DNA of 64,000 nt from a bacterium. GTDB lineage: Bacteria > Cyanobacteriota > Vampirovibrionia > Gastranaerophilales > Gastranaerophilaceae. Under the pieces are notes generated by a model. That model was not told where the DNA came from. It did no database searches and saw only the letters and a list, made by a program, of their open reading frames with translations. Of this stretch, positions 23,048 through 46,104 are shown one piece after another; positions within the stretch are counted from its first letter, which is position 1; the number at the start of each line of letters is the position of its first letter. The translations under genes and the position numbers were made by a program. The stretch spans positions 1 to 64,000 of the forward strand of contig JAFXXK010000016.1 of NCBI GenBank assembly GCA_017542305.1, written 5' to 3'.

Positions 23048-23818
23048 TTAATTACATTTTTTCTTCGGTCCGTTAAGTTGAAGTCCTGAACATTTTAAGT
23101 ATTCAAAATTTTCCTGCTGAAGCACCCACGCAGCACAACCTATACCCTGACCGTTCGGATTACAGTCAGTATCAAAAAGACGTTCTGTTCCTTCTATTCC
23201 GGTAGGTAGTACCCTGTCATTAACGACAACAAATTCAAATAAATCTTTACCCCACATATTAGGAGGATTTTCTCCGTTTACATCATAAAAAATTGCAGAT
23301 AATAAACTTGGATTCACCCTCCTAAACCATATACATGATCCGTCATTTAGTAATACTCTGTATGCGGCAGTACCGCCATAATTATAATTTGTTGCATTAG
23401 ACCCTGATAAATATTTATAAGTTCCGCTGTTAACACAACCAGGTTTATCCGTGCCACAGTCTTTTGATATATGTAAATACGGAACAAATACTGCGGCAAT
23501 TTCTTGTGCGGCTTCTGCATTATGAGCTTGAGTATTTCCTAGTTTAATTTCATCCAGTGCTTTGTTCATCAGGTATGCCTGTTGGAGGGTTGAATACATC
23601 TTTTTTAATTTTGTTATGGTCGCTTTATCATGATAATTTTGAATAAGAGTAGGTAATGTCAAAGCTGCAACAACACCGATAATACCGAGGGTAATTAAAA
23701 CTTCGGCGAGAGTGAAGGCAGCTTTCTTTTTGCCCTCTCCTAGGGGTGAGGGTAGAAAATCAATTTGAGCACTGCGAAAATTAGATTTTCGGGAGGGGGT
23801 TGTACATATTGTTTTCAT
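23048..23818 (-). CDS. type IV prepilin-like (pseudopilin) protein
   Basis: Exported pilin-like protein processed by prepilin peptidase. From the ATG at 23818 (AGGAG 4 nt upstream) it has 256 residues with a 34-residue leader. The cleavage/methylation segment KKKAAFTLAEVLITLGIIG has Ala in place of the usual Gly at -1, Phe at +1 and Glu at +5, followed by a hydrophobic helix (GVVAALTLPTLIQNY). The C-terminal domain holds Cys pairs (CGTDKPGC and the final KCSGL...KKKCN). The frame stays open upstream through a G tract to 24022, so a much longer protein is possible (see 23819-24026). Role in a type IV pilus or secretion pseudopilus is inferred. Confidence 0.75.
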   Translation of the reverse strand: MKTICTTPSRKSNFRSAQIDFLPSPLGEGKKKAAFTLAEVLITLGIIGVVAALTLPTLIQNYHDKATITKLKKMYSTLQQAYLMNKALDEIKLGNTQAHNAEAAQEIAAVFVPYLHISKDCGTDKPGCVNSGTYKYLSGSNATNYNYGGTAAYRVLLNDGSCIWFRRVNPSLLSAIFYDVNGENPPNMWGKDLFEFVVVNDRVLPTGIEGTERLFDTDCNPNGQGIGCAAWVLQQENFEYLKCSGLQLNGPKKKCN

Positions 23819-23928
23819 GAAACTCCTGCGAGCGAAGCTTATAATGTCGTGGCTCAGCCACCCCCCTCTTAGATTTCTAAGTTCGCTATCGCTCACTAAG
23901 AAATCTTGTTCTCCCCCTTGGAGAGAAC
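23733..23928 (-). repeat. series of five short palindromes inside the prepilin leader region
   Basis: Inverted repeats at 23733-23752 (CCCTC with GAGGG and CCTAGG core), 23775-23791 (CGAAAAT-tag-ATTTTCG), 23849-23861 (GTGGCT-c-AGCCAC), 23871-23906 (AGATTTCT...AGAAATCT) and 23908-23928 (GTTCTC...GAGAAC). All lie in the open prepilin frame. The last is shared with the 45.3 kb prepilin locus; the first four have no counterpart there. Confidence 0.7.
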
Positions 23929-24026
23929 TTGTTATTGTATTCTGCGAAGCAGTATCAAAACCCTCGAAACGCTTGCTATGAGAGGCTGCCCCCCCCCCTA
24001 AATGCCTTAAATGCAGATGTAGTCAT
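23819..24026 (-). other. out-of-frame upstream start and G tract of the prepilin locus
   Basis: ATG at 24026 (minus strand) has GGAGG 9 nt upstream and a TTGACA/CATAAT promoter. Nine codons later comes a run of 10 G (23998-23989). As given, this frame stops after 16 codons at TAG. The prepilin frame is open from 24022 down to 23048 and contains no ATG, GTG or TTG before 23896. With 9 or 12 G the ATG at 24026 would be fused to the prepilin, giving a 103-residue leader (9 G). Confidence 0.65.
23903..23946 (-). repeat. 44-bp module shared with the 45.3 kb prepilin locus
   Basis: The minus-strand sequence differs from 45386-45429 at 2 of 44 positions. In the prepilin frame it encodes SQNTI(T/I)SS(L/R)QGGEQD at both loci and contains a 9-bp hairpin with loop AAG. 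Confidence 0.9.
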
Positions 24027-24052
24027 AGTTTTAATCCTCCAGCTATATTACC

Positions 24053-24080
24053 ATTATGTCATATTTTTTGAGTTTGTCAA
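24053..24080 (-). promoter_or_regulatory. promoter of the G-tract prepilin locus
   Basis: On the minus strand TTGACA (24080-24075), 16 bp, CATAAT (24058-24053). The leader to the ATG at 24026 is about 20 nt and holds GGAGG (24040-24036). Confidence 0.65.
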
Positions 24081-45286: not shown

Positions 45287-45310
45287 ATATATAACACGGA
45301 GGATAAGGCT

Positions 45311-46104
45311 ATGATAGGATTTTCGCACAGGGGGGGGGGGTAAAACTCAACCGCAGCAATGGTTTTGAGCATTTTAACCCTACGTCGCAGAATACAATAA
45401 TAAGTTCTCGCCAAGGGGGAGAACAAGATAAAAAGAAAGCTGCATTTACGCTTGCGGAGGTGCTAATCACCCTCGGTATTATCGGTATTGTTGCGGCACT
45501 GACAATGCCTGCATTACTACTGAATTTTGAGAAAAAGACGGCAGCTACAAAAGCTAAAAAGGTGTATTCCGAATTACTCCAAGCTATTGAACTTTCAGAA
45601 AGTCATAACGGGGAACTGAAAGAATGGACATTTCCCGAAGCAGCTTCCATCGAAAATACAAGAAATTTTGTCGATGAATATATAAAACCTTATTTTACAG
45701 ACTTGAAAGAATGCTCAACCGGATCTGATCGCAAATGCGGAGCAAGCGTAAGTGGAAACGGTGTAAATTATATTGTACCAAACGGAACAGGAATTGCTAT
45801 AGTAGCACTACCGAATCATAATTTATATATTTTGACGGATGTTAACGGAGCTGACGGGAAACAACATCAGGGACAAGACCGTTTTTACTTTGATACAAAT
45901 AATAGTACCAAAACCTTAAAACCATTTGGCTGGAAAGATGATGTTACTGTCAACGATGTTTTAAACGGTTATAACCATAATGGTGAACAAGTAGCGTGTA
46001 AGAAATCACGATCCGAAAACAACGAATCAGAACTGTACCGACACGGCTGCACTCTGCTCCTTATGCTGAAGAATTGGGAAATCGACAGCGAATACCCGTG
46101 GTAA
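45311..46104 (+). CDS. prepilin-like protein, start separated from body by an out-of-frame G tract
   Basis: The body (45421-46104) encodes KKKAAFTLAEVLITLGIIG, a hydrophobic helix and a C-terminal domain with Cys residues and a CTLLLMLKNWEIDSEYPW end. The only well-placed start is the ATG at 45311 (GGAGG 8 nt upstream). Six codons later comes a run of 11 G (45330-45340), and as given this frame ends at TAA (45341). The prepilin frame is open from 45307 but has no ATG, GTG or TTG before the GTG at 45460, which lies inside the methylation motif and would destroy it. With 9 or 12 G the ATG gives an intact prepilin with a leader of about 44 residues (9 G). OFF phase variant, pseudogene or homopolymer error are the choices; I favour the first. 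Confidence 0.7.
45330..45340 (+). repeat. run of 11 G inside the prepilin leader
   Basis: Mononucleotide tract between the start codon and the prepilin body. Its codon phase (A-GG GGG GGG) is the same as that of the 10-G run at 23989-23998. Confidence 0.9.
45386..45429 (+). repeat. 44-bp module shared with the 23.9 kb prepilin locus
   Basis: Differs from the minus strand of 23903-23946 at 2 of 44 positions. It encodes SQNTIISSRQGGEQD in the prepilin frame and leads directly into KKKAAF, whereas the other copy is followed by about 62 extra codons. Confidence 0.9.

Follow-up and report, generated by a model that had tools for sequence, protein, structure and literature searches.

The closest described counterparts of the loci analysed here are found in Neisseria and Campylobacter. 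In the opa genes of Neisseria, the reading frame is set by the repeat CTCTT. The opa genes are a dispersed family (about 11 genes) of variant surface proteins, and every gene has near its start a separate repeat that sets the frame (PMC3745409); to this extent the Gastranaerophilales loci are alike; however, opa uses pentamer repeats and encodes outer-membrane barrels, whereas the Gastranaerophilales genes carry G or C homopolymers, encode a predicted pilin fold, form a larger repertoire and appear to be off by default. The variable homopolymers of Neisseria are those of 8 or more (PMC5084427). The pilC1 and pilC2 genes resemble the present loci in having poly-G directly behind the start codon, within the signal-peptide region that is removed on export, with on/off control of translation and hence of pili (PMC13190605), but PilC/PilY1 proteins are tip adhesins encoded by two genes, while the Gastranaerophilales products are pilin-like subunits, for which each genome has tens to about a hundred genes. 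In Campylobacter jejuni many G/C homopolymers switch surface genes, NCTC11168 having 29 such loci with tracts of 7 or more (PMC4965091); these mostly specify enzymes that modify surface glycans and lack a common 5' module, whereas the Gastranaerophilales loci specify one structural family behind a common module. Poly-G translational phase variation at the starts of pilus genes (pilC) and switched repertoires such as opa are already known. The literature searched, which was incomplete, offers no precedent for the host group, for use in a large pilin family, for the scale or for the default-off phase, and no paper in it joins Gastranaerophilales with pilin phase variation.

The window (the whole stretch of DNA analysed, 64,000 nucleotides) belongs to a draft genome, here called G000, of 1.70 Mb in 27 contigs and 78% completeness. 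It contains two prepilin loci of the kind described above (Table 1). A preliminary description of the minus-strand locus at 23.0-24.08 kb had placed a promoter, GGAGG, an ATG at 24026, nine codons and 10 G in front of a prepilin frame, and the minus-strand reading agrees with it in every element and coordinate. From the A of this ATG up to the tract there are 28 nt (nine codons and one A), and the assembled ATG frame reads MTTSAFKAFRGGGSLS and then stops, after 16 codons as had been stated, while the open stretch of the prepilin frame begins at 24022, 306 nt 5' of the FTL codons at 23716. The expected fusion at 9 or 12 G is borne out by translation, which gives a single prepilin ORF of 325/326 aa from ATG 24026. 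The locus at 45.3 kb does need the same two lengths, as had also been claimed, its G11 being out of frame with ATG 45311.

Table 1. Coordinates of the features of the two prepilin loci in the window (ON, tract length that joins the upstream ATG to the prepilin frame)
Feature	Position	Strand	Basis
Sigma-70-type promoter, TTGACA 24080-24075, 16 nt, CATAAT 24058-24053	24053..24080	-	sequence; activity presumed
Ribosome-binding site GGAGG	24036..24040	-	sequence; kept in module copies
Start codon ATG 24026-24024 and short leader, MTTSAFKAF. (ATG + 8 codons + A)	23999..24026	-	sequence
G10 tract, proposed frame switch, ON at 9 or 12	23989..23998	-	sequence; length-frame dependence, 209 loci
Translated leader, prepilin frame open, made of dispersed palindromic repeats	23717..23988	-	open-frame test; repeat comparison
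In-frame internal ATG, AGGAG 4 nt upstream; within repeat, not conserved	23816..23818	-	sequence
Prepilin, predicted mature part from FTLAEVLITLGIIG, 222 aa + stop; type IV pilin-like model	23048..23716	-	
GGAGG, second locus	45298..45302	+	sequence
ATG 45311 and short leader, second locus	45311..45329	+	sequence
G11 tract, second locus, ON at 12 or 9	45330..45340	+	sequence
Translated leader, second locus; GTTCTC..GGGGGAGAACAAGAT repeat common with 23.9 kb	45341..45444	+	
Prepilin, second locus, FTLAEVLITLGIIG to stop	45445..46104	+	

The same arrangement recurs throughout G000, where it may be treated as a module. The module holds 10 of the 13 runs of at least 8 G in this genome (on contigs C3, C5, C14, C16, C17 and C21, at the end of C10, at the start of C15, and twice on C26), and the promoter block TTGACAAA..ATATGACATAATGNTAATAT also lies 5' of 8 module copies. 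Two of the ten runs are cut off by contig ends; the remaining eight are followed by a prepilin on the same contig, and every one of these is off in the assembly and would be ON at a multiple of 3. The genome has 25 prepilins that exceed the PF07963 cut-off. Those without a tract have a Shine-Dalgarno (SD) sequence of the GGAGG type, equally placed, and an ATG at the equivalent position, directly in frame with the prepilin, and two with an eroded tract (C24:42.3 kb, GGAGGGGAT; C17:50.1 kb, GTGGGATGGGGGT) are likewise both in frame. The tract-less and eroded-tract paralogues therefore indicate that translation truly begins at the upstream ATG and that the fused frame is the functional one. Contigs break at the module, both at ends of C10, C12, C15 and C21 in G000 and at contig ends in G008, and pilin counts are for this reason underestimates. 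Two other homopolymers in G000 are associated with genes for repeat proteins: a G11 about 110 nt 5' of the ATG of a protein with RTX-like calcium-binding repeats (L065:1613-1623; G000:C10:65612), which may be a promoter-region tract, and a G8 inside a long reading frame that encodes a surface-type protein with TSGGAISNSG repeats (L062:1579, minus strand; G000:C4:53578).

The linkage of tract and prepilin extends well beyond this genome. In the window, the only runs of at least 8 G are the two tracts of the prepilin loci, which yield 7 overlapping matches where 0.24 are expected, a number reached in 0 of 100 shuffles. A DNA pattern that makes no use of the flanks (G8, 14-44 nt, FTLAEV codons) was scanned across 382 genomes of the class, with the reversed pattern as control. 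Matches were found in 59 genomes belonging to 12 of 97 genera, all confined to two families of one order, that of G000 and one more; the 96 genomes from the remaining orders of the class gave none, and the control gave none in all 382. On these counts, together with the shuffles and the share of G000 runs that lie in the module, a chance homopolymer is rejected, and the preliminary description is upheld to the extent that the loci form a conserved module, with ten loci in G000 and hundreds across the order. The flanks vary from genus to genus while tract and prepilin remain linked, and named Gastranaerophilales metagenome-assembled genomes (MAGs) share module sequences with genomes of the same family. 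Viral contigs searched for the module gave no match. A G10 elsewhere (L117:183-192; G001:C56) lies in frame in a phage-like ORF that runs into a DNA-methylase-like protein, possibly a phase-variable methylase.

In the genus of the window (g1), congeners of G000 have up to 133 runs of at least 8 G. Prepilins number 4-9 in genomes with at most three such runs and 25-92 in genomes with 11-133 of them; this bimodal pilin content offers a good setting for dating the gain or loss of the phasome. In another genus, g6 (468 kb, genomes G210 and G292), a tract of at least 8 G lies just 5' of 42 of 61 prepilin motifs, and seven further loci have a C10 tract at the equivalent position (L469:19389, L471:14226, L476:12068 on the minus strand, L489:396 and 6529, L490:13505 and L492:12672; six are off, and one has an ambiguous start). 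A search of g6 for poly-A/T tracts at this position found none. The occurrence of poly-C equivalents, with no poly-A/T, points to a property of G:C homopolymers in DNA and not to a codon.

Open-frame comparison indicates that translation runs through the leader that separates the tract from the prepilin. Over this whole interval the prepilin frame is open at 93 of 107 genus-level loci, the other 14 having leader stops, and at 52 of 52 loci in other genera, or 145 of 159 over all sets; among leaders 90 nt or longer, 70 of 84 are open in this frame, against 1 of 168 for the other two frames. These counts bear directly on the reading that copied repeats have produced a decayed gene family in which most copies are frameshifted pseudogenes, a reading to which the leader stops, the out-of-frame majority of assembled copies and the contig-breaking repetition of the modules would all be congenial. 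Against it, nothing but the tract is defective 5' of the prepilin at the 145 loci, the prepilin frames downstream are 120-407 aa long and their ends are conserved, the two eroded tracts read in frame, and tract length depends on frame (see below); decay is accordingly very improbable.

The position of the start codon is a separate matter. The preliminary description had suggested that an ATG at 23818, preceded by AGGAG, might provide constant expression of a shorter form, so that the tract would choose between two leaders. The ATG and its AGGAG are indeed present and in frame, which is the basis for supposing that a short form is made constantly from such internal starts and that the tract merely lengthens the leader, but the SD spacing is just 4 nt and the segment is part of a dispersed repeat. 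Over 140 loci, an SD-preceded in-frame ATG or GTG between tract and prepilin occurs at only 10, the one at 23818 among them, and at 74 no codon of any type in that interval could act as a start, so that at these loci the upstream ATG must serve and expression must cross the tract. An internal start is thereby rejected as a general feature, and a choice between leaders is barely plausible. Stops within 40 nt of the tract in the off frames occur in 67 of 93 cases, against 48% at control positions; this excess is too weak to uphold a designed stop gate in both off frames, and that candidate was rejected.

The leader itself has an unusual composition. In the locus at 24 kb it is a chain, 270 nt long, of small palindromes, several of which recur outside prepilins, chiefly in intergenic sequence, and leaders in other species contain different translated repeats. 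In-frame dispersed palindromic repeats of this kind, both at 23717-23988 and in congeners (L083, L089, L104), read SPLGEG, HPELVSGS and LPRNDMGKK. A leader that is removed by cleavage, as predicted here, would tolerate repeat insertions. The Rickettsia palindromic elements are small palindromic repeats kept in frame within protein-coding genes. The Gastranaerophilales palindromes resemble them in style, although they pile up in the predicted cleavable leader.

If the tract sets the frame, then its length should depend on the frame relation of each locus, and the preliminary description had named a length-frame correlation as the test of its proposal. The correlation was found: over 140 loci the length modulo 3 depends on the ON class (chi2 49.9, P 4e-10), and there are 22 ON loci against 31.3 expected when lengths are permuted within genomes (P 0.009), these P values being guides since the loci are related. 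When the set is thinned by flank similarity the deficit of ON loci persists (for example 14 of 82, permutation P 0.0009), and inclusion of genera g6 and g10 brings the set to 209 loci, 28 of them ON and 181 off, or 13% ON as against 33%. Most genomes have a modal tract length, which is off at 148 of 168 loci, and the excess of off loci may stem partly from shared ancestry of the modules.

The further claim that the phase is identical at different loci stood only in part. ON corresponds to 0 mod 3 at 8 of 8 testable loci of G000, but at other loci and in other genera it corresponds to 1 or 2 mod 3, so that one absolute phase everywhere is rejected. The common feature of the loci, as judged from the assembled sequences, is that the prevailing tract length misses the frame, in most cases by a single base.

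All the loci come from draft metagenome assemblies, in which homopolymers are error-prone and the consensus of a MAG hides minority alleles, and the tract lengths might on this account be consensus errors in genes that are truly in frame. But errors would not be aware of the frame in several independent genera, nor would they produce a uniform G10 in two species, and the tracts themselves are real whatever their exact length. We regard such an artefact as extremely improbable.

Both states occur among like alleles, as seen between paralogues and between species. Near-identical paralogues of the same genome can differ by one G and have opposite states (L122 with G12, ON, and L315 with G13, off; L397 with G11, ON, and L395 with G12, off; L284 with G9, ON, and L283 with G10, off). 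Among near-identical pairs with flanks of at least 93% identity, however, length differs in only 2 of 12, and in g6 exactly G10 in a single off register is found at 39 of 42 loci, which is less scatter than free switching would suggest. The one clear pair of orthologues between G210 and G292, with G10 in both, is uninformative here. The uniformity of g6, the equal length of most high-identity pairs and the strong bias towards the off state would suit a programmed gate, in which a fixed out-of-frame tract gives a constant low level of product by RNA polymerase slippage or ribosomal frameshifting and no heritable switching takes place. Tract lengths nevertheless range from 8 to 15, with all three registers, sometimes within one genome. 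Moreover, the favoured off register is ON+1 in g1 and g10 but ON-1 in g6, so that no single direction of frameshift fits, and the one fixed direction and register that a programmed ribosomal frameshift would show across homologues is not found. That poly-C serves as well as poly-G also argues against a ribosomal signal specific to GGG. A programmed gate is unlikely overall, though transcriptional slippage at a fixed length is possible, most of all in g6.

The products are best described as prepilin-like. An N-terminal FTLxE cleavage/methylation motif is present (TIGR02532, 19.7 bits against a cut-off of 16.3), as is a match to PF07963 (27.5 bits against 21.2), and G000 encodes a prepilin peptidase (PF01478, 40 bits, G000:C6:31590). 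Some prepilins tolerate alanine immediately before the cleavage site (position -1). Both loci in the window have alanine there (..KKKAA|FTLAEV) and not the glycine found at L061 and L070, and for this reason the pilin assignment does not rest on the -1 residue. In six loci of the congeners G004 and G006 (L083, L087, L089, L090, L132, L162), the sequence FTLAEGATHVAQSAKPRRAAFTLAEVLITLG looks like a repeat inserted within the prepilin motif, with FTLAE duplicated in frame and the second motif intact. The AlphaFold model of the 23.0 kb protein (pLDDT 87.6) has a helix at 3-52 followed by a beta sheet. A Foldseek search of the PDB with this model gave no significant match, and in VIA structural alignment pilins rank first, with modest Z scores (PilA5 5.5, PAK 4.5, PilA4 4.4). 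The protein has a tract-less paralogue in G000 (L027, 75% identical), and comparison of 165 mature prepilins places all but a few in one divergent superfamily, linked via C-terminal regions. Their location would presumably be at the cell surface.

Taken together, the evidence makes it probable that these loci constitute a system of translational phase variation, off by default, in which a diverse pilin repertoire is switched by slipped-strand mispairing. At the locus at 24 kb, the ribosome would initiate at ATG 24026, translate about nine codons and enter the G tract. With a multiple of three (9 or 12 G), reading would continue across the leader with its repeats and on into the prepilin, and the prepilin peptidase would then cut the leader off before FTLAEV; with G10 or G11, a stop would be met soon past the tract and no prepilin would be made. 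Mispairing at replication would shift the tract by one G, so that the gene toggles. Since dozens of prepilins per genome would be switched independently, and the modal length is an off length, the pilins on any one cell would be a few drawn at random from the repertoire. The sequences themselves show the anatomy of the switch, translation of the leader, the need for the tract, the dependence of length on frame, in-frame reading of eroded copies, both states among near-identical paralogues and membership of one pilin superfamily. Slippage as the cause of the length differences, the reversibility and rate of switching, surface display and a bet-hedging role are parts of this picture that we infer.

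A more tentative extension is that the default-off state is a genome-wide gate, in which each lineage maintains a specific tract length (G10 or C10 in g6) and the coding phase is set one base out; we think this somewhat doubtful. If it were true, tens of pilins would be silent and would be expressed only via rare slippage, either heritably (at replication) or per transcript, and the variable under selection would be the coding phase and not the length of the tract.

The bias towards the off state and its dependence on frame are measurable from existing metagenomic reads, and because closely related species of the same genus lack the tracts, the gain or loss of an entire phasome can be studied by comparing members of a single genus. 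A 2025 review counts among the major open questions of the field why an abundance of phase-variable loci seems restricted to the genomes of pathogens, and whether this reflects database bias (PMC11868660). Gastranaerophilales are non-photosynthetic gut and rumen bacteria, related to cyanobacteria and without known pathogens, whose genomes would each hold homopolymer-gated pilin genes by the tens, up to about a hundred, a load comparable to or above that of C. jejuni.
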